A stretch of 64,000 bases of DNA from Williamsia sp. 1138 (GTDB lineage Bacteria > Actinomycetota > Actinomycetes > Mycobacteriales > Mycobacteriaceae): contig NZ_MJEJ02000040.1 in the NCBI RefSeq assembly GCF_002095435.2, positions 1-64,000 of the forward strand, read 5' to 3'. Under the pieces are notes generated by a model. That model searched no databases and was not told where the DNA came from. It saw nothing but the letters and a program-made list of their open reading frames with translations. A program made the translations under genes and the position numbers. Position 1 is the stretch's first letter. The number at the start of each line of letters is the position of its first letter. Shown one piece after another: positions 9,939 to 57,299 of this stretch.

Positions 9939-11057
9939 TCAGTGTGCCGTGTGGACAGCGAACCTCTGGTTGCGCGCGTGCAAATCCGACTCGGTGGCGG
10001 GTACCAAGAAGTCCCGCGCTTCTGAGACTCCTTCCTGCGCAGTGGCGACCCGTGGACGCATCTGCTGCTCGTATCGGCCGAACGCCTCGGTGTGCTCGGA
10101 CGGCGTCGCGGCCAACTCAGTCGCCAGATGATGGGCACCGATCATGGCCAGTGACGTGCCGCGGCCCGAGAAGAGTGACGCGGCGTGCGCGGCGTCGCCG
10201 ATGAGCGCGACGCGACCGCGTGACCACCCCGGCATGTGCACCTGGCTCACCGAGTCGAAGTAGAGGCGATCGGTCTCGGCGATCGAGTCCAGCAAGAACT
10301 CGGATCGCCAACCGACATCACCCGCCAGCAATCCCACCAACACCCGTTTCTGGTCGGCCAGGTCCCGGTTGTCGTACTCGACCTCCGGTGTTCTCGCAGC
10401 CATGAAACCTATCGTGCGATGCCCGTAATCGTTGATACAGAACATCTTCCCGGGTGCACTGAAGGTGACACTCTCGCCGGGCGTGCCCGAACCGAGGGGG
10501 AGGTCCACGAGCGCGGTGTAGGTGTCCAGGTGTTTGCGGTAGTGGTGCTCGGGTCCGAAGATCGCCTCCCGTACCGTCGAATGGATACCGTCTGCGCCGA
10601 CGACATGGTCGTACCGGGCTGATCGCCCAGAGGCCAGAGTCACTTCGACGACTCTGCCGGTGTCGACCACTGTTTCGATGGAGTCGTCGTAGACGAACTC
10701 GACGCCGGAGCCGATCGCGTCGTGCAAGATGGCAATCAGGTTGTCCCGGGCGATTTCGATGTCGTCCGGTGAGTCGGTTGCGTATTCGTTGGGCAGCACG
10801 GCGATCGGCCGGCCCAGGGAGTCGACCCAGGTGGTGAAGGCGTCCCGTCCCGACGTGGCCACCCGCTGGTCATGAATCGCATCTGCGATGCCCATCTCGG
10901 CCGCAACCCCCAGTGCGTCGCCGCGGATGTCGATCGGCGACCCGGAGACGCGAAGGGCCGGCGCGCGTTCGACGACGGTGACCTCGAATCCGAAGCGGTC
11001 GAGCCAGTACGCGAGCGACAAGCCGGCGATGCTCGCTCCTGAAACCAGCACTGCCAT
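9939..11057 (-). CDS. FAD-dependent aromatic-type monooxygenase
   Basis: 372 residues from ATG 11057 (MAVLVSGASIAGLSLAYWLDR), with AGGAGGC six bases upstream; the longer frame to 11096 is not needed. It is a group A flavin monooxygenase with three landmarks: the GxGxxG-type VSGASIAGLSLAYWL, the DG motif VVGADGIHSTVR near residue 160, and the GD motif ALIGDAAHAASLFSGRG near 280. Its closest remembered relatives are TetX/PgaE-like hydroxylases. The substrate is unknown. An operator-like ATAGGATCCAAT lies at 11117-11128 upstream and is repeated upstream of the gamma-glutamyltransferase-like gene, suggesting shared control with the cluster to its right. Confidence 0.85.
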   Translation of the reverse strand: MAVLVSGASIAGLSLAYWLDRFGFEVTVVERAPALRVSGSPIDIRGDALGVAAEMGIADAIHDQRVATSGRDAFTTWVDSLGRPIAVLPNEYATDSPDDIEIARDNLIAILHDAIGSGVEFVYDDSIETVVDTGRVVEVTLASGRSARYDHVVGADGIHSTVREAIFGPEHHYRKHLDTYTALVDLPLGSGTPGESVTFSAPGKMFCINDYGHRTIGFMAARTPEVEYDNRDLADQKRVLVGLLAGDVGWRSEFLLDSIAETDRLYFDSVSQVHMPGWSRGRVALIGDAAHAASLFSGRGTSLAMIGAHHLATELAATPSEHTEAFGRYEQQMRPRVATAQEGVSEARDFLVPATESDLHARNQRFAVHTAH

Positions 11058-11116
11058 GGTTGCCTCCTGTTGAGAGTTCGTTGAGTCGGCATTCAATCGT
11101 ATTCAATCCGACTAGG

Positions 11117-46780: not shown

Positions 46781-48925
46781 TCAGCCGGCGGGCGCTGTGG
46801 TGGGTGCCGGTGCCGGTGCAGGGGTACCGCGCTGTTCGTTGTAGCTGTTGGTGAACTCGTCGACGTAGGTCCGCAGCACTTGGACGATCCCGGTGATGAG
46901 GTTGAAGAACAGTGTTCCGCCCTGGAACGTCTGACTCACGCCGTCAGGACCCGTGGTCTCAGGCGAGGTCGGCAACCCGAGTGAGGAGTTCTCGAATCCC
47001 AGTGCGCCCCAGGCTTTGGCGATGGCGCCCTGGATGACCTGCGCGCCGGTCGCCTCGGACCAGTAGATCTTGCCGTTCTCGAAGTCGGCGTACTTCGCGG
47101 TGCCGTCGGGTGTGGTCTGCTCGACGGTCGTCGCGTTGCCCAGGGTGCCGGTGGGTCCGCCGGTCGCGACCCACTGTTGTGCGATGGCGCCCTGATCGGT
47201 GGTCGAGAGGACCTCCGGGGCCGGTGCCGGCGCGACGGGCAAGGCGCCCGCACCTGCTGCGATCGCGCGGATCTGGGGCAGCGCCTCGTATCCGTACTGC
47301 CCCGGGCAGGCGGTGCTGTAGAAGTCCCGGTGGCCGCTGATGATCGGCAGGGTCGCGGTTTCACCTGCGGCATACAGGCCGCCGTCGAAACCGCGAGAGA
47401 CCACCGAGCCCGTCCCGTTCGGGTCTTTACCGGCCAGGCGCAGCCGCCAGCCGAGGTAGGTACCGGCCGAGTTGATCATCTCCGGCGTCGGGGCGATCTC
47501 GTCGAGGTTACCCATGAGCGACAGGCCCATCGTCTCGTCGTTGAAGCCTCCGGTGTGGGTGCCCTGGACGTTCTTGTCCAGTCCGCCGAAGGTGCCCTCG
47601 AAGATCTGGCCGTACTTGTCGACGAGCACGTTGTAGCCGATGTCGCACCAGCCCAACGTTTGTGCGTGATACGCGTAGATTCCGCGCACGATCTCTGCGG
47701 ACTGCTCGCGGGTGTAGTCGTTGGTGCCTGCGGTGTGGTGCACCACGGTCTCCTTGAGCTCCGGATCGTACGTCGGCTCGGAGCAGCGCATCGATTCGTC
47801 GGCACCCCACTGGGCGCGGGTGATGACCTGGGGTTCACCCGTCGGTGCCGGGATTCCCGGGAGTACCGGGGCCGCAGGTGCTTCGGGCGCAAGCGGTGCT
47901 GCCGGGTCCACCGGCGCAGCCGGGTCGGCCGGGGCCTGCGCGCCCTCGGCCGAACCTGTGCCGGGTGAGATCAGGGCTGCGCTGAGCGTCGACACCGCCT
48001 GCTGCAGCGGGTCGGCGCCAGGGGCTCCGGTCGTGGTCAGCATCGGTTCCTGCTTGGGTGTGAATGCCTGCGGCACAACCTCGCCGGAGGTGACGGTCGA
48101 GGTGGGTACCGAGGTGTCGGTGCGTTTGGGTACCGGTGGTGTCGTGAAGGTTGTCGATGTGGTGGGGCCGGTCGGTGATGCCGAGCCGGTCGACTCTGCC
48201 GGGCTCGGGGACTGCGCGGGGGCGGTGTTCGTCGCGCCCGGTGCTGCGACGCCGTTGTCGGTGACTGCGATCTGGACGAGGTTCGTGCGGCCGACCCAGA
48301 CGGGCTCGGTGCCCTGCTTGTTGGGATCCTTTTCGCTGACACCGTCGGCCTTGTCGGCGGAGATCCACGGCCCCCAGGTGCCGTCGGGCTTCTTCGCCCG
48401 GACATAGGCGGTGGTGTTCGCCACGCCTTCCCACGTCAGGCCCACCATCGAGAACGGGTTGTCCTGACTCACCTCTTTGACGATCGCGCCCTCAGGGGTA
48501 CCTGCAGGCGCATCGGTGCTCGGTGACGTTTCCGGTGCGGTGGTCCCCGGCGGTGTGGTCGTTCCGCCGGGCGCGCCCGGTGCGGTGGTCGACGGGAGCG
48601 CCGGCAGGAGCTCGGTCGGGATCAGGCCCGGCGGGATCTGCAGCGGGATGTCAGGGAGATCGATGCCGGAGACATCGATCGGCGGAAGGGTGACCCCGGC
48701 GTCGGCGAGACCGGACTTGACCAGGTTGAGGACGATCGTCGGTACGTCGTCCAGGCTTACCTGACTGATCGTGGTCGGCGTCAACGCCGACGCGGCGGGT
48801 GGCTCACTCGGGTCGACGGCGATCGTCGGCGCGCTGCCGCCGATCAGGACCGCGAGCGGACTCGCGACCACAACGGCGGCAACCGTGCCAAGGATGATCG
48901 ATGGCTTCGGTCGGCGGTAGCGCAC
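46781..48925 (-). CDS. Exported peptidoglycan-recognition/N-acetylmuramoyl-L-alanine amidase with LGFP repeats (Rv3811-like)
   Basis: 714 residues from GTG 48925, with AAGGAG upstream. A signal-anchor (SIILGTVAAVVVASPLAVLIGG) precedes a long Pro/Thr/Ala-rich region (to about residue 380). The PGRP/amidase_2 domain (about 390-560) has zinc-site residues in ETVVHHTAGTND, a Tyr in GYNVLVDKYGQIFEGTFGG, and ISGHRDFYSTACPG (His, Cys). The C-terminus holds LGFP-type repeats (GTLGNATTVEQ, ALGFENSSLGLPTS), which occur in mycolate-layer-associated proteins. It probably cleaves or binds peptidoglycan outside the membrane. It is divergent from the SpoIID gene. Confidence 0.9.
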   Translation of the reverse strand: MRYRRPKPSIILGTVAAVVVASPLAVLIGGSAPTIAVDPSEPPAASALTPTTISQVSLDDVPTIVLNLVKSGLADAGVTLPPIDVSGIDLPDIPLQIPPGLIPTELLPALPSTTAPGAPGGTTTPPGTTAPETSPSTDAPAGTPEGAIVKEVSQDNPFSMVGLTWEGVANTTAYVRAKKPDGTWGPWISADKADGVSEKDPNKQGTEPVWVGRTNLVQIAVTDNGVAAPGATNTAPAQSPSPAESTGSASPTGPTTSTTFTTPPVPKRTDTSVPTSTVTSGEVVPQAFTPKQEPMLTTTGAPGADPLQQAVSTLSAALISPGTGSAEGAQAPADPAAPVDPAAPLAPEAPAAPVLPGIPAPTGEPQVITRAQWGADESMRCSEPTYDPELKETVVHHTAGTNDYTREQSAEIVRGIYAYHAQTLGWCDIGYNVLVDKYGQIFEGTFGGLDKNVQGTHTGGFNDETMGLSLMGNLDEIAPTPEMINSAGTYLGWRLRLAGKDPNGTGSVVSRGFDGGLYAAGETATLPIISGHRDFYSTACPGQYGYEALPQIRAIAAGAGALPVAPAPAPEVLSTTDQGAIAQQWVATGGPTGTLGNATTVEQTTPDGTAKYADFENGKIYWSEATGAQVIQGAIAKAWGALGFENSSLGLPTSPETTGPDGVSQTFQGGTLFFNLITGIVQVLRTYVDEFTNSYNEQRGTPAPAPAPTTAPAG

Positions 48926-49234
48926 GTGGTTCTCCTTGATATGTCGCACCTGGTGGTTCGTGGTCTTCACCGCCATCGGCCGGGCACGCCGAAGGAGGCG
49001 TCCAGGCAGATGTCGACTTCCCCATCGACTTGTCAGACTTCGAAAGCGTGTCCGTTGTGCGGCTCGAAGTCCACGACCCCGCTCGGCGTGGCGTGAAACT
49101 TGTGATGCGGTTGTTATCGGGTGGGGCTTATGTGACTCAAATTGAGCCACTACTGTCACTTGAGTCCCACTAGTCACATATCGCGGCTGTCGCGTGCGTG
49201 CGTCGACCGTGGGCGAACTCGAGAAGGGACACCC
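48926..49234. promoter_or_regulatory. Divergent region between the amidase and SpoIID genes (309 bases, no gene)
   Basis: I see no coding sequence. A dyad-rich block lies at 49130-49179: ATGTGACT (49130-49137) is inverted as AGTCACAT (49172-49179), and inside it CTCAA-A-TTGAG (49136-49146) and ACTTGAGT form further dyads. These are likely operators for one or both cell-wall genes; the regulator is not identifiable. Confidence 0.4.
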
Positions 49235-50917
49235 ATGCCGCGTATTCCAGGGCTGTACACAACTCGACCCATCGGGGGCCGGGCTGCGTATGGTGCCCGG
49301 CTGCGCAGACCGGCTGCTGCCGGGGTGGCCCTGATCCTCGCCGCGGGAGCTGCTGTCTGGGCCGTACCCCAGGCAGTCGATTCGGATGTGTCTCTCACCG
49401 TCGGCGGTGAGGTCACGCTGATAGGGCATGGCAACGGGCATGGTCGCGGGATGGGCCAGTGGGGTGCGTTCGGCTACGCAAAACAAGGCTGGACCTCGAC
49501 TCAGATACTGAGTCATTACTACGGCGGCACCACCGCGGGGAAGGTGGACAACGTCGACGTCTCGGTCATTCTCACAGGTGAGACGTCGGTCAATGTCTTC
49601 GCGGACGCCGGTTTGAAAGTTGGTGATGTGGTGGTGGCGCCCGGACAGGCCGTGAGTCTGTCGGGTTCCACCGCCACCATCACCGCCGGATGCGGCGGGG
49701 GCGCCGTGCAGTCGGTGGAACTACCGAGGCCATTGGTCTCACCGATCACCCCGGGGCCCTCACGCCCCGGCCCCGAACTCCTCAAGATGTGTGGTTCCAA
49801 CACGACGTTCCGGGGCTCACTCGGCCTCGACGGAGGGCGCGTGATCAATGTGTTGCCCCTCGACGACTACGTCAAAGGCGTGCTGCCCAGAGAGATCTAC
49901 CTGAATTGGGCAGAAGAAGGGGGTGCCGAGGCGCTCAAGGCACAAGCCGTTGCTGCCCGCACCTATGCACTCGCCTCGATCGACATCAGCAAACCGATCG
50001 ACGACACCCAGAACTCCCAGGTCTACGGCGGCTTCGGCGGTGAGGACCCACGCTCGAATGCAGCAGTCGACGCGACTGCGGGCATCGTCCTCAACAAAGC
50101 GGATGGCAAACCGGCCTTCACCGAGTTCTCGTCATCCACCGGCGGTGCCACCGACGGCCGTGATTTTCCTGCGGTCATCGATGACGGTGATGCGATCTCG
50201 CCGTTCCACGACTGGACGGCAGCGGTCTCCTCCGACAGCATCGCGTCCGCCTTCGGCGTCGGTTCCCTCACGGGTTTCGAGGTCATCGAGGCCTATGGGA
50301 TGGGCGCCGAGAACGGCCGTGCGGCCAAGGTCCGCATCAGCGGCACCGGCGGCACCGTCGAGGTTCCCGCGCAGGAGGTGCGCACCAAACTCCAACTGCG
50401 GTCGTCGTTCTTCTCCGTGCAGGGCCAGGAAACCAAGCCGGCCATCGTGGCGCCGCCGTCCGGCGTCGGGGCCAACGCCCCCGCCGTGCCGGTTCCGGGT
50501 GCCGTGCCGGGAATCCCTCCGGTGACCCCGTCCGTTCCGGGCGCCACCGGCGACACCCTGAGCCAGTTGCTCGCACTCGCGGAGGCGGCGATCGGTGGCA
50601 AGTTCTCCGAACTCGGTGGTAGCTCCGGCCTGCTCGGGGCGGTCCTGGGACCGGTCGAGGCAACGCCGTCGGGAACGGGTGCGGTACAGCAGTTCCAGAA
50701 CGGCTCGGTCTTCTTCAGCCCGGAGAGTGGGGCGCATGCACTCGGTGGACTGTCGTTGCTCAACTTCGCGTTGCAGGGCGGGGAAAGCGTGCTCGGCCTT
50801 CCGCTCGAGGACTCCCTGAGCACTCTGGCCGGGCCGCTCACGCAGATCTTCCAGAGTCGGTTCGCGAACGGCATCCTCGAGGTCGATCCGACCACCGGAC
50901 TCGCTACTCGCAGATAG
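49235..50917 (+). CDS. Exported SpoIID/LytB-domain protein with C-terminal LGFP-like segment
   Basis: 560 residues from ATG 49235, with AGAAGGGA upstream. A signal peptide/anchor (PAAAGVALILAAGAAVWAVPQAV) comes first. The SpoIID domain has GHGNGHGRGMGQWGAFGYAKQGW, LDDYVKGVLPREIYLNW and GGAEALKAQAVAARTYAL. The GHGxGHGxGxSQxGA-type motif contains Q in place of the usual S, as GMGQWGA, which is common in actinobacteria. The C-terminal part (GAVQQFQNGSVFFSPESGAHALGG) is LGFP-like, as in the neighbouring amidase. SpoIID proteins cleave glycan strands; exact activity here is unproven. Confidence 0.87.
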   Translation: MPRIPGLYTTRPIGGRAAYGARLRRPAAAGVALILAAGAAVWAVPQAVDSDVSLTVGGEVTLIGHGNGHGRGMGQWGAFGYAKQGWTSTQILSHYYGGTTAGKVDNVDVSVILTGETSVNVFADAGLKVGDVVVAPGQAVSLSGSTATITAGCGGGAVQSVELPRPLVSPITPGPSRPGPELLKMCGSNTTFRGSLGLDGGRVINVLPLDDYVKGVLPREIYLNWAEEGGAEALKAQAVAARTYALASIDISKPIDDTQNSQVYGGFGGEDPRSNAAVDATAGIVLNKADGKPAFTEFSSSTGGATDGRDFPAVIDDGDAISPFHDWTAAVSSDSIASAFGVGSLTGFEVIEAYGMGAENGRAAKVRISGTGGTVEVPAQEVRTKLQLRSSFFSVQGQETKPAIVAPPSGVGANAPAVPVPGAVPGIPPVTPSVPGATGDTLSQLLALAEAAIGGKFSELGGSSGLLGAVLGPVEATPSGTGAVQQFQNGSVFFSPESGAHALGGLSLLNFALQGGESVLGLPLEDSLSTLAGPLTQIFQSRFANGILEVDPTTGLATRR

Positions 50918-50997: not shown

Positions 50998-51960
50998 TCA
51001 GTCCCGAGCGGGTCGCGGTCTGAGCAACAGCGGCAGCAGTATTCCGAAGAAAAGGGCAATACCGACCCCGAGCAGCGTCTCGTTGATCCGCTCGAACAAT
51101 CGGGACGGCGCGTCGTCCGGATTGGAAAACCCGAGCAGCATGATCACGAAGAACGTGGTGAACGCCGGCGTGACATAGAACCTCGATCCGTGCGTCGCCG
51201 ATGCGAGCGACAACGCGAGAAGGAACACTGCCGCGAAAACAGCTGCGGGCGGTCCACTTTCGATGAGCAGGAGCGCCACCGCACCGCCGGAGACCACCGA
51301 AACGACGCGACCTGTCATACGTGCGAGCTGTACGTCGCGGACCGGTCTCATCACCATCAGTGCTGCGGCGCACGCCCAGCCGACGTGGTCGAAGTCGAAG
51401 ACGAACCCGATGGTGGCGGCGAGCGCGCCCGCCGCTCCGAAACGCAGCCCGTAACCGAGGCCGGGCGACCCCGGGGGCTGATCGCCGGCGGCCGGTTCGC
51501 GTTCGGGTACGGCCATGGCGCACAACCAGACCAGTACCGAGCCGCCGACAAAGAGTGCTGTCAGCTCGGCGGACTCGCCGACCGTGTCGTAGCTGAGCCC
51601 GACACCGACCATGGGTACGGCGAGCGTCATCAGGAGTCCGCCCAGCCGGGCGAACCGGGCGGTACCCGCCAGCAGCACCGCTCCGACGGCCAGCCCGAAG
51701 ATCACCGGCACGGCCACCACGGGTAGTGGTGCCACCAGTGAGCCGAGCATCATCGGTAGCCCGATGAGCAGTCCGGCGAGCAGCAGGACGATTCGTTGCC
51801 TGCGCAGCGGCGCGATCCCGACGATGGCGGCGGGCAGTACCCCGACCCCCAGCGCCGCGGCCGCGGCGATGTCCGAGAACGCCACCACCACAGCGGGGAT
51901 CGCTGCCACCGCGCCGACGATCGCCGCGGCCGGGTTCCAGGCGAACCACCGCTCACCCAT
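50998..51960 (-). CDS. FUSC-type multi-pass membrane protein
   Basis: 320 residues from ATG 51960, which overlaps the Hsp70-like stop (TGATG); ATG 51993 (MAQVRRALPLLMGERW) is an in-frame alternative. About ten helices are visible in two sets around a charged loop (PEREPAAGDQPPG). The second half (GGLGYGLRFGAAGALAATIGFVFDFDHVGWACAAALMVMRP with DVQLARMTGRVVSVVSGG) resembles the FUSC/aromatic-acid-exporter family. Substrate unknown. Its overlap with the Hsp70-like gene suggests that the two products work together. Confidence 0.78.
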   Translation of the reverse strand: MGERWFAWNPAAAIVGAVAAIPAVVVAFSDIAAAAALGVGVLPAAIVGIAPLRRQRIVLLLAGLLIGLPMMLGSLVAPLPVVAVPVIFGLAVGAVLLAGTARFARLGGLLMTLAVPMVGVGLSYDTVGESAELTALFVGGSVLVWLCAMAVPEREPAAGDQPPGSPGLGYGLRFGAAGALAATIGFVFDFDHVGWACAAALMVMRPVRDVQLARMTGRVVSVVSGGAVALLLIESGPPAAVFAAVFLLALSLASATHGSRFYVTPAFTTFFVIMLLGFSNPDDAPSRLFERINETLLGVGIALFFGILLPLLLRPRPARD

Positions 51961-53999
51961 CAGCAGAGGCAGAGCCCGGCGGACTTGAGCCATTCGGCAA
52001 ACGCTGCCTGATCAGTGCTGTCGGTCATCCACCAGGTGACGGTGCCGTTGCCCGGCGAGTACACAATGTACGCGACCGTGCCGTCGTCGAAGGTGTCGAA
52101 GTACGCATACGTCGTATCGCCGTCGACCACCCGCGAATACAGCTCAGAGGTGTTGCTCGCGGCATGCTCCTCTTCTGCGAGGGCCTTGATGTCGGTGTCG
52201 GCGACGACCTCGATGAGTCCGATCGCGCTGGCGGGAGCGCCGACCGTGCCCTGGCCGGCAACGGCCGGCGTCGGTTCGCAGAAGATGCTCGCGAGTGCGT
52301 AATCGATGCTGTCGATGGATACGCAGGTATCGGTCTCGACGAGGTCGACGTTGGCGTCCGCCAGCGCTTGTTCGTCGGAGTTCAACGATGCATTGGCAGT
52401 CGAGGTGTCGGTGGTCGGCTCGACCCGTTCGGTGGTCGTTGCGGACGACGACGTGGACGGCTCGGACGACGCGGTGGGGCCGGGTCCCGGGTCGTCGTCG
52501 CCGGAACTCGCGAGAGCCACTCCCAGGATGCCGGCCACGATCAACACCACGACCGCCCCGATAGCGATGATCGCGATGTTGCGATTGCGGTTCGGGTTGG
52601 GTGGTGTCGGGTTGTGCGGGTTCGGGGCCCCGCCGGCGGCGTACTGGGATGCCGCGGCGTACTGGGGCGAAGGCCCCGAGGCGTACGACGGCTGCCGGCC
52701 GTACGGACCGGGTGGAGGCATCGGGGGCGGCGTGTTCGGCCCGCCTCCCCAGGCCGGTGTACTCGACGCGGGCGTCGGTGGCGGCGTCGGCGCTCCCCAG
52801 GGGGCCGGCGGCGGCGTGGCGGGCTTCGACAGCGGCACCGGGGCGACGGGTGGTACCGAGGGTGTCGGTGCGCCCACGGCACCACCTTCGTTGACGATCG
52901 CCTCGAGCGCACCCAGTGCAACAACGGTTTTCGGATTGTCGAGGGTGGCGACGGTACCGAGTTCTCCGAGTCTGCGGTGCACCAGCGGCACCCGGGAAGA
53001 ACCGCCGGTCAGGTAGAGCTGCACGTCTGTGCCCGCACCCGCCCGCGCCAGGGTGCGGGTGGTCAGATCGACCACGGAGTCGACGTTGTGGGCGATCAGT
53101 TCTTCGAACTCGCCGCGGGTGAGCTCGAGGATCGCCTCGTGGCCACCGGCGCTGATGTTGATCACGGCGCGCGGCGACTCCGACAGCAGCTCCTTGGCCC
53201 GCCGGATGTTGTCGTCGACGGCGCGCTTGGTGGTCAGGTTGGCGCCGGTGCGCAGGTATTCCAGCAGGTCCGGTGCCCGCGAGGTGAGCTGCTTGTCGAC
53301 CCACCGCCGGATCATGGCATCGAGATTCTTGCCGCCGAGTCCGTTGTTGCCGTCGTGCGCGATCAGATCGATGGGACCGCCGTCGCCGGAAGCGGGGTTG
53401 CCGGAGGCGATCTTGACGACTGCGACATCGCACGTGCCGCCGCCGTAATCCACCACCGCGACCGTCTGCCCGGGCTTTGACACGATGGTCGAGCCCGGGT
53501 CCGCGGTCGCCCGCGTGTAGTGGGCGATGGCGGCACGAGGTTCGGAGATCAGTGTGACCGCACCACGATCGAACCCGATCAGTTCGGCGGCGCGGGTCAG
53601 GACATCGATCTCCTCCGGGGACCAGGCGACCGGATGGGTCAGGATGAGCCGCGCCGGCCGGGTGCCGCCGCGCCGTTCCGAGGCGCGGTTCAGGGCCGAA
53701 TTCAACACGGCTGCAATGAGATTCTCGAGCGGGAGGTCGAGGTTTCCGACGGGTACCGTGCCGGCGGCGATGTGGCGTTTCGGGTGGGTGATGAAGGCGG
53801 CAGGGTTGTTGGTCGCCTGGTTCACCGCCGCCTCTCCGACCACGATGTTGCGGTAGGAATCGGCATACACCGAGGAGGACATGATGTCGCTGGTGTGCGA
53901 CAGCGGCACCACCTGCGGGGCACCCGAGCCCGGCTCATAGGAGGCGGCAGCCGTATTGGAGGTGCCGAAGTCGATCGCCAGCCACCAGTGCATCGACAT
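51960..53999 (-). CDS. Membrane-anchored Hsp70-like actin-fold ATPase with extracellular domain
   Basis: 679 residues from ATG 53999, with AAAGGA upstream. The N-terminal actin/Hsp70 nucleotide-binding domain (about 1-365) has phosphate-1 LAIDFGTSNTAAA, phosphate-2 VVDYGGGTCDVAVV, and the adenosine motif YLTGGSSRVPLV. The Hsp70 substrate-binding domain is absent. A Pro/Gly/Ala/Tyr-rich linker (about 390-490) leads to one helix (IAIIAIGAVVVLIVAGILGVALASS). A Ser/Thr-rich stalk and a roughly 130-residue outer domain follow, with Cys in DTCVSID, IFCEP and the C-terminal GLCLC. An ATP-driven or ATP-sensing transmembrane device is suggested. Three acidic repeat proteins lie upstream on the same strand. 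Confidence 0.85.
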   Translation of the reverse strand: MSMHWWLAIDFGTSNTAAASYEPGSGAPQVVPLSHTSDIMSSSVYADSYRNIVVGEAAVNQATNNPAAFITHPKRHIAAGTVPVGNLDLPLENLIAAVLNSALNRASERRGGTRPARLILTHPVAWSPEEIDVLTRAAELIGFDRGAVTLISEPRAAIAHYTRATADPGSTIVSKPGQTVAVVDYGGGTCDVAVVKIASGNPASGDGGPIDLIAHDGNNGLGGKNLDAMIRRWVDKQLTSRAPDLLEYLRTGANLTTKRAVDDNIRRAKELLSESPRAVINISAGGHEAILELTRGEFEELIAHNVDSVVDLTTRTLARAGAGTDVQLYLTGGSSRVPLVHRRLGELGTVATLDNPKTVVALGALEAIVNEGGAVGAPTPSVPPVAPVPLSKPATPPPAPWGAPTPPPTPASSTPAWGGGPNTPPPMPPPGPYGRQPSYASGPSPQYAAASQYAAGGAPNPHNPTPPNPNRNRNIAIIAIGAVVVLIVAGILGVALASSGDDDPGPGPTASSEPSTSSSATTTERVEPTTDTSTANASLNSDEQALADANVDLVETDTCVSIDSIDYALASIFCEPTPAVAGQGTVGAPASAIGLIEVVADTDIKALAEEEHAASNTSELYSRVVDGDTTYAYFDTFDDGTVAYIVYSPGNGTVTWWMTDSTDQAAFAEWLKSAGLCLC

Positions 54000-54095
54000 C
54001 GGTGCAGGTCCTTTCGTCTTGTGTGGAGAGTGGTTCGAACCGAGGTGATCCGGGAGATGGGACCCCGCTGCCGCCAACGTAGTTCATGCTCGTTG

Positions 54096-54476
54096 TCAGA
54101 GGATCTGGAACCCGTCGGGGATGCCGTTCTGGTCGACGTCGGAGATCGCGAAGTCGTGGGACCCGTCCTGGTCGATGTCGGCGAAGACCGTGTCTGCGGT
54201 GCCGTCCTGGTCGAGGTCGGACATGCTCGTCTCGCTGAATCCGTCACCATCGGCGTCGTAGGCGATGGTCTCGACCTCACCGTCCTCGGTGAAGTCCTGG
54301 ACGATGGTGTCGCCGAGGCCGTCTCCGTCGGTGTCGAGCAGGACGGACTCGTCGTAGCCGTTGCCGTCGTAGTCTGCGTACTCGATGACCGTCGGGCCTG
54401 TCGTCTCGGTCGGTCCCGCCGTCTCGGTGGTGGAGGGATCGGTGGTCGAGGGATCGGACTTGATGGAATCGGACAT
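54096..54476 (-). CDS. Acidic protein of seven 13-residue DxDxDG repeats (paralogue 1)
   Basis: 126 residues, strongly acidic. After a Ser/Thr/Pro-rich N-terminus (about 1-34) come seven exact 13-residue units, for example DTDGDGLGDTIVQ, DADGDGFSETSMS and DIDQDGSHDFAIS. Each unit has a D-x-D/N-x-D/N-G calcium-loop-like start. There is no signal peptide, which is unusual for such repeats, so it may act in the cytosol or leave by a non-Sec route. GAGGAG precedes ATG 54476. The gene has its own ECF-like promoter (54558-54529) and lies 96 bases before the Hsp70-like start. Calcium binding is inferred. No family name is known to me. Confidence 0.8.
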   Translation of the reverse strand: MSDSIKSDPSTTDPSTTETAGPTETTGPTVIEYADYDGNGYDESVLLDTDGDGLGDTIVQDFTEDGEVETIAYDADGDGFSETSMSDLDQDGTADTVFADIDQDGSHDFAISDVDQNGIPDGFQIL

Positions 54477-54528
54477 GGTCGGTGCTCCTCGGTTGCTCTC
54501 TGCTGCGATGGACTCGCGGTGTCGTCAG

Positions 54529-54558
54529 TAGGAGAGCCGCCGGGCCCGAAATGTTCCC
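54529..54558 (-). promoter_or_regulatory. ECF-like promoter of acidic repeat paralogue 1
   Basis: On the minus strand GGGAAC (54558-54553), 18 bases, CTCCTA (54534-54529). The same two hexamers with the same 18-base gap precede paralogue 3. GGAAC is a common ECF-sigma -35 core. Confidence 0.55.
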
Positions 54559-54581
54559 GGGTTGCGCGTGATGTCTACCGG

Positions 54582-54974
54582 TCAGACGACGCCGGTGTCG
54601 CCGGAGCCCGGATCCACCTCGGTCCACTCGCCTGTGCCCGGATCGTTGACGTAGGCATTGTCGATGTCGCCGTCCTGGTCGACGTCCACGAATGCGACAT
54701 CGGCGCTGCCGTCGGCGTCCTCGTCGACCACTACGGTGTCGGCGTTGCCGTCGCCGTCGGTGTCCACCGCCGCCGTCTCGAAGTAGTTGTCACCGTCGGT
54801 GTCGTAGGAGAGGGTGTCGATGGCGCCGTCCTGGTCGGCATCGGAGGCCACGACATCACCGACGCCATCACCGTCGACATCGACCAGGGCCGAGTCCACG
54901 ACCCCGTCACCGTCGTTGTCGAAAACCTCGAGTATCGCGGCGTCGGTGGGCTCGGGGGTGTTGGGATCGGTCAT
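54582..54974 (-). CDS. Acidic protein of seven 13-residue DxDxDG repeats (paralogue 2)
   Basis: 130 residues. It has seven exact 13-residue units after residue 18, such as DNDGDGVVDSALV, DVDGDGVGDVVAS, DTDGDNYFETAAV and DVDQDGDIDNAYV. It ends with NDPGTGEWTEVDPGSGD, shared with paralogue 3 (GTGEWTEIDP). There is no signal peptide or membrane segment. AAGGAG precedes ATG 54974. In the 196-base upstream spacer I do not find the shared ECF-like promoter; a GGAACC is present, but no matching -10. Confidence 0.8.
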   Translation of the reverse strand: MTDPNTPEPTDAAILEVFDNDGDGVVDSALVDVDGDGVGDVVASDADQDGAIDTLSYDTDGDNYFETAAVDTDGDGNADTVVVDEDADGSADVAFVDVDQDGDIDNAYVNDPGTGEWTEVDPGSGDTGVV

Positions 54975-55170
54975 GTCCAGGCTCCTTGAACTCGGGTGTC
55001 ACCATCGTCGTGGCACGCAGCTTGCTGACAAGCACACTCCGGTTCCGCGGCCTGTGCGCGGGAATCGGTGAAAAGTTTCGCAGGAGTTTTCCCGGCTGCC
55101 GACGACAACCAGACCGCGCCGGCACCCGGGGGGAGGTGCCGACACGGTCTGGGGGCTTACAGCGGGCGTC

Positions 55171-55572
55171 TTACAGGGCGCTGGTGTCAGGGGTCTCGAC
55201 GCTGGCGGGGTCGATCTCGGTCCACTCGCCGGTGCCGTCGTTGACGTAGGCGCTGTCGATCTCGCCGTCCTCGTTGTCATCGACGAAAGCGATGTCGTGG
55301 GTGCCGTCTGCGTTCTCATCGAAGTAGACGGTGTCCGCCTCTCCGTTCTGGTCGGTGTCGGAGATGGCGGTCTCGTAATGGTTGTCGCCGTCGGTGTCGA
55401 AGGCGATCGATTCGGCTTCTCCGTCCTGGTCGTAGTCCTGGACCATGACGTCGCCCGTGCCGTCGGCGTCGATGTCGACGAGTGCGGATTCTTCGGTGCC
55501 GTCGCCGTCCACGTCGAGTATGTCGAGGACGGTGGCGTCTTCAGAGATCTCGGGCATCGTGTTGTCGGACAT
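55171..55572 (-). CDS. Acidic protein of seven 13-residue DxDxDG repeats (paralogue 3)
   Basis: 133 residues from ATG 55572, with AAGGAG six bases upstream; the longer frame to 55740 crosses the promoter. It has seven exact 13-residue units, including DVDGDGTEESALV, DIDADGTGDVMVQ, DYDQDGEAESIAF, DTDGDNHYETAIS and DENADGTHDIAFV. It ends NDGTGEWTEIDPASVETPD. It is first in a leftward array of three repeat genes, the Hsp70-like gene and the FUSC gene. An ECF-like promoter lies at 55660-55631. Repeat number and length are the same in all three paralogues, which argues for a folded rod or solenoid of defined length. Confidence 0.8.
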   Translation of the reverse strand: MSDNTMPEISEDATVLDILDVDGDGTEESALVDIDADGTGDVMVQDYDQDGEAESIAFDTDGDNHYETAISDTDQNGEADTVYFDENADGTHDIAFVDDNEDGEIDSAYVNDGTGEWTEIDPASVETPDTSAL

Positions 55573-55630
55573 GGTTTCTCCTTGTTTGTTGTGGATTGGC
55601 CGCAAGCTGTTGTGGCCGGGTTGTTGTTGA

Positions 55631-55660
55631 TAGGAGGGGCGCAGTCCCCACAAAGTTCCC
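55631..55660 (-). promoter_or_regulatory. ECF-like promoter of acidic repeat paralogue 3
   Basis: On the minus strand GGGAAC (55660-55655), 18 bases, CTCCTA (55636-55631), identical in hexamers and spacing to the promoter at 54558-54529. It leaves a 58-base leader to ATG 55572. Confidence 0.55.
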
Positions 55661-55733: not shown

Positions 55734-57299
55734 ATGACATCGAACGACATGGTCGACCCGGAGCCCGGCGAGTTCACGTTTGCTCCGCTGTCGCCTGCGG
55801 GTTTCCTCACCCGGGCCGCTAAGGCCTTCGCCGACCGCATCGCCGTCGTCGACGGCGAGCATTCCTTCACCTACGCAGAGCACCACCGTCGCGTACTGGC
55901 GCTGACCGGAGTACTGGGCGCGGCGGGCGTCCGGGCCGGCGACCGGGTGGCGGCGTTGTGTGCGAACAGTCACGTGATGCTCGAGTTGCACGGCGCGATC
56001 CCGCTGCACGGGTCGGTCCTGGTGCCGTTGAACACCCGGCTCTCGGTCCCGGAGATCAGCTACATCCTCGAGCACAGCGGGGCGACGATCTTGTTCGCGA
56101 CCGAAGAGTTCGCCGAGACCGCGGCTGCGGTGGCGGACGCCGCAGGTATCGACCTGGTGCTCGCCGGAGCCGGCGGTGATTACGAGAAGCTGCTCGCGGA
56201 TGCGCCGGGGCCGGTGCTGCGGGACCCTCATGAGCGCGGGCTCCTCGCGATCAACTACACGTCAGGGACCACCGGGCGGCCCAAAGGGGTGATGTATCAC
56301 CACCGTGGGGCCTACCTGCAGGCCGTGGCGATGGCTTACCATTCCCGGCTCGACCCTGCGTCGAAGTATCTGTGGACGTTGCCGATGTTCCATTGCGACG
56401 GATGGTGTTTCACCTGGGCGGTCACCGCCGCCGGTGGCACCCATGTCTGTCTACGGTCCATCGACACCGCCGAGATCTGGCGGCGGCTGCGCGAAAGCGG
56501 TGTCACGCACTTCAGTGCGGCGCCGACGGTGCTGACGATGATCGCCGAGGATTCGGCTGCGGCGCCACTTGATCGCGCGGTGGCCGTGGGTACCGGGGGA
56601 GCTCCACCTTCACCCGTGCTGCTCTCCCGGATGTCTCGACTGGGCATGGAGGTCACCCACCTGTACGGGATGACCGAGACGTTCGGGCCGATCATGGTCA
56701 ACCAGTGGCAACCCGAGTGGGATGAGCTGGAACGGGACGAGGTCTCGGTGCTCAAGGCCCGGCAAGGGATCGGCAACATCGTCGCCAGACCGGCACGGGT
56801 GGTGACGCCTGAAGGCATCGATGTGCCCGCCGACGGAAACACCATGGGAGAGTTGGTGGTCAGCGGAAATGACGTGATGCTCGGCTACTACCGGGACCCG
56901 GATGCCACCGCTGCAGCCACGATCGACGGGCATCTGCGGACCGGTGATCTGGCCGTGATGCACCCTGACGGATACGTCGAACTCCGAGACCGCAGCAAAG
57001 ACGTCATCATCTCCGGCGGGGAGAACATAGCCTCCGTCGAGGTCGAGCGGGTTCTCGACGCCCATCCCGATGTCGTGGAATCGGCGGTCGTCGGACGCCC
57101 CGACGAACGCTGGGGTGAGGTACCGGTCGGCTATGTCACGATCCGGGCGGGTCGGGATCTGAGCGCGGAGGAGCTGATCGATTTCGCGAGAACACGTCTC
57201 GCGCGTTTCAAGGTCCCGAAGGAGATCGTGTTCACCGAACTCCCGAAGACATCGACCGGGAAGATCCAGAAAAACGTCCTGCGATCGGGACTGCGCTGA
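55734..57299 (+). CDS. Fatty-acid/acyl-CoA synthetase (AMP-binding family)
   Basis: 521 residues. ANL-superfamily motifs are P-loop INYTSGTTGRPKGVMYHH, LYGMTETFGPI, GHLRTGDLAVMHPDGYVELRDRSKDVIISGGENI, and the catalytic lysine in LPKTSTGKIQKNVLR. It activates a carboxylic acid, medium-chain or branched by likeness, to its CoA ester. GGAAG precedes ATG 55734. It is divergent from the acidic repeat genes and followed by a 196-base spacer (57300-57495) in which I see only a possible -10 TAGATT near 57376. Confidence 0.92.
   Translation: MTSNDMVDPEPGEFTFAPLSPAGFLTRAAKAFADRIAVVDGEHSFTYAEHHRRVLALTGVLGAAGVRAGDRVAALCANSHVMLELHGAIPLHGSVLVPLNTRLSVPEISYILEHSGATILFATEEFAETAAAVADAAGIDLVLAGAGGDYEKLLADAPGPVLRDPHERGLLAINYTSGTTGRPKGVMYHHRGAYLQAVAMAYHSRLDPASKYLWTLPMFHCDGWCFTWAVTAAGGTHVCLRSIDTAEIWRRLRESGVTHFSAAPTVLTMIAEDSAAAPLDRAVAVGTGGAPPSPVLLSRMSRLGMEVTHLYGMTETFGPIMVNQWQPEWDELERDEVSVLKARQGIGNIVARPARVVTPEGIDVPADGNTMGELVVSGNDVMLGYYRDPDATAAATIDGHLRTGDLAVMHPDGYVELRDRSKDVIISGGENIASVEVERVLDAHPDVVESAVVGRPDERWGEVPVGYVTIRAGRDLSAEELIDFARTRLARFKVPKEIVFTELPKTSTGKIQKNVLRSGLR

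Follow-up and report, generated by a model that had tools for sequence, protein, structure and literature searches.

Acidic DxDxDG-repeat proteins and a membrane Hsp70-like ATPase of Williamsia: candidate parts of an iniBAC-like gene system with paired dynamins

What brings three genes for small acidic repeat proteins together with the gene for a membrane-anchored Hsp70-like ATPase? The question is raised by a stretch of 64,000 nucleotides from Williamsia sp. 1138 (contig NZ_MJEJ02000040.1, positions 1 to 64,000), which we call the window. An earlier interpretation made from the letters alone, the sequence-only reading, had taken these genes and an adjoining FUSC-type gene for one assembly of metal-responsive acidic rods, a membrane ATPase and a transporter. 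Comparison across genomes very probably places the repeat proteins and the ATPase in a single gene system, here called the module, together with a pair of dynamin-like GTPases (DYN1 and DYN2) and an extracytoplasmic function (ECF) sigma factor. On balance we favour the view that this is a system resembling iniBAC. The dynamin pair and the sigma factor, which lie outside the window, the shared promoter and the likeness to iniBAC go beyond anything in the earlier interpretation. The features from which the argument starts are as follows:

51960..53999, minus strand: Hsp70-like membrane ATPase, 679 amino acids (nucleotide-binding domain at about 1-370, Pro-rich linker, membrane helix at about 475-497, outer domain)
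54096..54476, minus strand: repeat protein 1, 126 amino acids, seven 13-residue DxDxDG units, with its own ECF-type promoter
54529..54558, minus strand: ECF-type promoter GGGAACATT-N15-CTCCTA, upstream of repeat gene 1
54582..54974, minus strand: repeat protein 2, 130 amino acids, seven units, without a promoter match of its own
55171..55572, minus strand: repeat protein 3, 133 amino acids from the ATG at 55572, seven units, with its own ECF-type promoter
55631..55660, minus strand: ECF-type promoter GGGAACTTT-N15-CTCCTA, upstream of repeat gene 3

Each of the three paralogues, as had been claimed, is built of seven contiguous 13-residue units without insertion, lies upstream of the ATPase and has no visible signal peptide. 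The unit has the form D1-x-D/N3-x-D/N5-G6-x-x-D/E9 plus four residues, and the strict loop D.[DN].[DN]G is satisfied by six of the seven units in every one of the three; the other two proteins are 48% and 47% identical to repeat protein 1. No hydrophobic N-terminal stretch was seen in any of them, with protein 3 read from 55572. This start is preferred over the start of the open reading frame (ORF) at 55740 because the promoter match at 55631-55660 falls inside the longer ORF. The repeat family is present in all nine Williamsia genomes analysed, so the arrangement is not a product of chance. Copies per genome at E<=1e-25 number 3, 3, 3, 3, 2, 2, 2, 2 and 1, and all 21 of these proteins contain seven units. 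The unit number is thus fixed among close relatives, as proposed, and the variation that the sequence-only reading had named as evidence against itself was not seen within the genus. The figures "three" and "seven" are narrower than they appeared: seven holds in these nine Williamsia genomes, whereas copy number varies from one to three per genome, and in other loci the longest in-register run spans 4 (the floor of our filter) to 15 units.

The conserved positions of the unit are 1, 3, 5, 6 and 9, which supports the suggestion that each unit is a metal-binding loop. Position 9, which was not used in picking the units, is D or E in all 126 units of 18 distinct Williamsia proteins and in 95% of 285 units of 44 proteins from other loci (these statistics exclude 18 loci that lie outside the module or come from unrelated records). 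In Pfam and NCBIfam scans, the repeat proteins fall in no family at curated cut-offs. The window proteins stay below the cut-off for EF-hand_1 (9.7 bits, curated 25.4) and TSP_3 (13.8 bits, curated 25), narrowly miss that for FG-GAP_3 (best 26.0 bits, cut-off 26.9) and give no match to DUF6802 at E<=1. They have DxDxDG loops in common with calcium-loop proteins of the DUF6802, FG-GAP_3, TSP3 and EF-hand kinds, but keep a strict 13-residue period and reach no gathering cut-off. In one locus (L191), the protein after the dynamins is itself a DUF6802 protein (42.8 bits, cut-off 27). The structure of repeat protein 2 was predicted using AlphaFold (pLDDT 82.8, pTM 0.69, 11 sequences). The model has one strand per unit in an extended sheet, consistent with the rod-like shape suggested earlier, and its best likeness in a structure comparison is to single-layer sheets such as OspA; the metal loops would sit at the edges of the sheet, between strands.

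The architecture proposed for the ATPase is borne out. Its Hsp70 nucleotide-binding domain is matched by PF00012 at 74.2 bits (cut-off 20.6). This match covers the profile only as far as position 368 of 599 and hence includes no substrate-binding domain. The protein shares the actin-fold nucleotide-binding domain with DnaK and HscA but has the Pro-rich linker, a single membrane helix and the outer domain, with Cys 559, 574, 677 and 679, where their substrate-binding domain would be. Its identity to the DnaK of the same genome is about 27% over 398 residues. What we take to be the phosphate and adenosine motifs can be assigned within the nucleotide-binding domain.

The remaining parts of the module begin 2.2 kb beyond the end of the window, on C44 of this genome (G000):

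G000:C44:66201-67580, outside the window: DYN2, IniC-like dynamin-like GTPase
G000:C44:67751-69580, outside the window: DYN1, dynamin-like GTPase
G000:C44, ending at 70192, in the opposite direction to the dynamins: ECF sigma factor
G000:C44:70755-71114 (10755-11114 of the fetched stretch L140): small acidic protein

An adjacent dynamin pair of IniA/IniC type therefore occupies G000:C44:66201-69580. In a further locus (L087), the counterparts of DYN1 and DYN2 carry PF00350, and DYN1 matches the solved IniA structure 6j72 over the GTPase part only. After the module, L140 continues with genes that are presumably glf and galactan synthesis genes.

Do these parts belong together? We surveyed 151 Mycobacteriaceae genomes, using as queries the Hsp70-like domain and a DYN2 from another genus that is encoded beside an Hsp70-like gene. 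The Hsp70-like search matched 50 genomes at E<=1e-25 and the DYN2 search 90 at E<=1e-20. Strong matches (Hsp70-like E<1e-55 and DYN2 E<1e-45, cut-offs picked from gaps in the lists after these had been viewed) occur in an identical set of 42 genomes, and the other 109 have neither. In the fetched stretches, DYN1 is present in all 42 of these module genomes and the ECF sigma factor in 38. A repeat protein lies near the module in 39, comprising all nine Williamsia genomes, 29 of the 33 others (within 15 kb) and G044, where it is beside DYN1; this agrees with the earlier claim that the repeat proteins belong with the ATPase. In G014 and G081 the pieces of the module are on short or cut contigs, and in G026 a protein with a single unit remains. 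Several stretches run to contig ends, among them L088, L102, L120, L179 and L189, and genes were called with a home-made ORF picker, such that the long ORFs of L106, L110 and L114 are possibly artefacts.

The distances of the Hsp70-like protein, DYN1 and DYN2 correlate with r of 0.87-0.95, values reached in none of 2000 permutations; this is the pattern that joint inheritance would give. The module is patchy within genera, for example in 3/10, 1/10 and 4/9 genomes. Comparison of gene content across the family thus shows the dynamin pair, Hsp70-like ATPase, repeat proteins, sigma factor and often a second small acidic protein to be gained and lost together in Mycobacteriaceae, as judged from sequence matches. 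Repeat proteins occurring mostly without the ATPase were the other case in which the sequence-only reading would have been wrong. For strong matches this was not seen, since 23 of the 33 best non-Williamsia repeat places among the matches listed are within 15 kb of the module. It was seen in part for weaker matches: among those listed, 48 of 77 repeat hits in module genomes are near the module, and 24 module-free genomes have 26 hits. Nine stretches of 17-20 kb around off-module DxDxDG proteins (L134-L138, L153, L154, L157 and L158) contain no Hsp70-like or dynamin match.

A further link between the parts is provided by the promoter. The regions upstream of repeat genes 1 and 3 have GGGAAC-N18-CTCCTA in common, and GGGAAC-N(14-22)-CTCCTA matches twice in the window, where 0.01 matches would be expected. 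Eight Williamsia sites were used to refine the pattern to GGGAACWTT-N15-CTCYWA, which gives 55 sites in 17 of the 151 genomes, seven of them in G000, compared with three for the reversed pattern. The module is present in all but one of these 17, and in each of those 16 genomes the fetched loci include the sigma factor. The genes behind the sites encode 28 DxDxDG proteins and 14 small acidic proteins (42 together), three Tyr-rich small proteins, three desaturase-like proteins, two lipoproteins and one each of a C39-like peptidase, a DUF7373 lipoprotein and a secreted peptidase-like protein; one site has no clear gene, and one precedes an unrelated gene in the module-free genome. The small acidic, Tyr-rich, C39-like, desaturase-like and lipoprotein classes were assigned by eye unless a profile is named. 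Outside Williamsia there are 17 sites in eight genomes, of which 11 precede repeat or small acidic genes. In part of the module genomes, the comparison thus shows the acidic genes to share one predicted ECF-type promoter. The sigma factor of the locus may be the one that reads it, and repeat gene 2 is probably transcribed from the promoter of repeat gene 3.

Some smaller observations concern the genes found with the module or behind this promoter. The small acidic proteins (also L087 13797-14231 and L121 5525-5887) have a VxxxALxxAxDPxTP-like stretch in common and, by a home-made profile, occur in fetched loci of 25 of the 42 module genomes. The gene for a DUF7373 lipoprotein (L087 4244-5590) adjoins the dynamin pair; DUF7373 proteins are present in fetched loci of 22 of the 42, and the copy behind the promoter is in G108. 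At G000:C39:137921 (L221) the promoter precedes a gene for a 76-residue Tyr-, Ser- and Asp-rich protein, with look-alikes in G076 and G032. At G106:C5:205522 (L230), the site with no clear gene, a terminator-like hairpin lies no more than about 110 bases beyond a perfect copy, possibly marking a small RNA or a lost gene.

Which known system does the module resemble? Dynamin-like proteins are known for cutting membranes. Research on iniBAC has treated it as an operon that responds to cell-wall drugs such as isoniazid or ethambutol. Like iniBAC/iniR, the module pairs IniA/IniC-type dynamins with an acidic, low-complexity or repeat partner gene: in ini loci, proteins with the IniB_NTERM domain adjoin the dynamins, a position held in the module by the repeat proteins. 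Hsp70-like genes also adjoin IniR-like genes in L196 and L197 (the IniR label was given by eye). Unlike IniB, the repeat proteins do not match the IniB N-terminal domain (NF038175), either at E<=1 in the three window proteins or at E<=0.01 in those of L119, L117, L040, L193, L105 and L190. The module differs further in its ECF sigma factor, its ECF-type promoters and its constant Hsp70-like ATPase. No IniR-type regulator was seen in the gene map of L140, where the ECF sigma factor is found instead, although no IniR profile was run; AAA-like genes were noted by eye in L190, L193 and L180.

The same genome has another dynamin locus. On C53 (L196, 1-13801), an IniR-like ATPase gene, labelled by eye, and an Hsp70-like gene diverge from an IniB-domain ORF of 1011 residues, which is followed by two dynamin-like genes and then a dnaK operon. 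By its gene content this looks like the genome's own iniBAC locus. Because an apparently ordinary iniBAC is present, the module would be a second, paralogous set. In the literature, IniA is described as mediating membrane fission (PMC6715688), and IniA and IniC are reported to assist vesicle release (PMC11832169, citing Gupta 2023). Passages on IniB in PMC5760070 call its role unclear and describe its size and presence as variable, and M. smegmatis is mentioned there in passing as having, without IniB, a dnaK-like gene by iniR.

Envelope stress is what both the sigma promoter and the resemblance to iniBAC point to. We think it probable, though by no means certain, that one iniBAC-like, paralogous envelope-stress or vesicle system includes both the repeat proteins and the Hsp70-like ATPase, with Ca2+-type repeats in IniB's place and an ECF sigma factor, working by the mechanism set out here. 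Stress would free or induce the sigma factor, and the cytoplasm would fill with acidic repeat proteins. Each 13-residue unit would combine a loop for Ca2+ (or another hard metal) with one β-strand, so that the protein would form a stiff acidic ribbon with a length determined by the number of units. The Hsp70-like protein would have its anchor in the plasma membrane and a sensor-like domain outside it, and the ribbon would be a scaffold or client of this ATPase and of the dynamins, taking the place that IniB has in iniBAC. By binding and releasing the scaffold through ATP turnover, the ATPase could recruit or recycle the dynamin pair. The dynamins would then cut, fuse or repair membrane, most simply in vesicle shedding or damage sealing, as reported for IniA and IniC. 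Taken alone, this scaffold-ATPase-dynamin mechanism is a tentative proposal that may well prove wrong. A bolder version, to which we give little credence, is a bacterial coat-and-uncoat vesicle machinery in which a membrane Hsp70-like ATPase assembles and strips a calcium-hardened acidic scaffold so that a dynamin pair can pinch or seal membrane, under an ECF switch in Mycobacteriaceae and found also in further actinobacterial families and at least one non-actinobacterial lineage. In the module, the recurring parts (dynamin pair, membrane Hsp70-like ATPase and acidic repeat protein) stand apart, and a compact group of ECF-type promoters comes in addition. The role of the acidic partner and the Hsp70-like protein for bacterial dynamins thereby becomes directly testable in a genus in which the parts could be deleted singly, and strict 13-residue calcium-loop proteins outside curated families gain a functional setting.

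We then looked beyond the family. At order level, the DYN2 query matched 25 of 298 genomes at E<=1e-36, and 17 of 20 non-family loci were fetched. At class level, the DYN1 query matched 53 of 345 genomes at E<=1e-40; among 34 non-family genomes, loci were fetched from 20 in the upper ranks of the list, G468 being passed over. A search with the repeat proteins only gave 11 loci. No module is visible in nine of these, several of which are on short contigs, and the remaining two are Williamsia and L040. The latter is a 6.7-kb contig of 45% GC from a metagenome-assembled genome labelled Bacillota in its record title, recovered without any Hsp70 or dynamin query, and it carries genes for an Hsp70-like protein, a repeat protein, DYN1 and DYN2 in that order. 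In L190, L193 and L194 the repeat genes adjoin the dynamins. At L204 (10963-12207), in a dynamin/Hsp70 locus from the class-level set, DxDxDG loops out of the 13-residue register are fused to a C39-like peptidase domain, a fusion that by its sequence would link the two families. Two more of the class-level loci, L200 and L201, have a DUF6802-like protein (by eye).

Several of the findings weigh against the iniBAC-like reading. The survey cut-offs were chosen after the fact, and eight genomes have a weaker Hsp70-like match without this dynamin, the nearest being G052 at 1.5e-49. In the genome studied here, an interval of about 11 kb that contains other genes separates the dynamins from the repeat genes; the corresponding interval in five sister genomes is 2.4-3.3 kb. 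DxDxDG proteins are also encoded elsewhere than at the module, and in this genome three such genes have the same promoter. The looser promoter pattern is weak on its own, because genome-wide it gives four sites and its reversed control three. The strict pattern is found in 16 of the 42 module genomes and is missing from the other 26, and relaxing it yields matches ahead of 35 of 96 repeat regions; other genera would therefore use a diverged or different promoter. At order level, an Hsp70-like protein is present in 5 of the 17 non-family loci and in-register repeats in three of those five. A non-DnaK Hsp70-like protein (>=60 bits) was found in 17 of the 20 class-level loci, a figure without a random-locus control; by hydropathy 12 of these proteins have a membrane helix and five show none. 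In-register DxDxDG repeats are present at class level in two loci only (L202 and L217), compared with an IniB-like protein in six (L211, L213, L214, L215 and L218 score over the curated cut-off for IniB_NTERM, and L212 falls slightly short of it). The Hsp70-like protein of L040 is distant (52 bits), is nearer DnaK by blast and has no visible membrane helix. Finally, we infer calcium binding, protein contacts, localisation, membrane remodelling and stress induction of the module from sequence.

A different possibility is that the DxDxDG proteins buffer calcium or another metal on their own, under the control of an ECF sigma factor for envelope stress, and that their genes lie near Hsp70 and dynamin genes only because the sigma gene is there too. 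Of the seven G000 sites, three lie before small DxDxDG genes at a distance from the module; genes for secreted and desaturase-like proteins are among those behind other sites, and none of the 55 is assigned to an Hsp70-like or dynamin gene. Against this, the four genes form one run on the low-GC contig L040, repeat genes are immediate neighbours of dynamins in L190, L193 and L194, and an IniB-domain protein holds the repeat position in ini loci; we consider a mere neighbourhood unlikely, though worth taking seriously. The patchy presence within genera is also what might be expected of defence genes, with the dynamin pair and accessory proteins guarding the membrane in conflict or against phage. 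The module resembles Eleos (LeoA, LeoBC) in encoding dynamin-like GTPases with partners, and DYN1 of L087 matches LeoBC (E 6.4e-17) and LeoA (4.9e-12) in the PADLOC library, which has no curated cut-off. Only DYN1 and DYN2 resemble Leo proteins among the module proteins scanned, however: the repeat, C39 and Hsp70-like proteins of L087 have no PADLOC match at E<=0.01, and the window Hsp70-like protein matches PD-T4-6 only, at E 0.0093. Since the repeat family is kept in all nine of the Williamsia genomes, the module in L140 lies beside what we take to be glf and galactan genes, and the promoter and iniBAC likeness favour envelope stress, a defence role seems improbable.

That leaves the assembly of calcium-responsive rods, membrane ATPase and FUSC transporter from which the question arose. 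The gene concerned is:

50998..51960, minus strand: FUSC_2 membrane protein, 320 amino acids, its start overlapping the ATPase stop as TGATG

The metal-loop repeats and the TGATG coupling, which is as had been described, speak for such an assembly, and the FUSC_2 domain is clear (PF13515, 60.9 bits, cut-off 25.6). In an ORF search of the fetched stretches, however, FUSC adjoins the ATPase in three of nine Williamsia genomes and in none of the non-Williamsia loci covered by the same search, and the dynamins and sigma factor are far more constant. We therefore judge FUSC, on its pattern of occurrence, to be an incidental neighbour rather than a conserved part, and an assembly that includes it to be highly improbable. 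Divergent from the FUSC gene, at 46781-50917 of the window, are the genes of two LGFP-repeat proteins related to the cell wall, one with an amidase and the other with a SpoIID domain.

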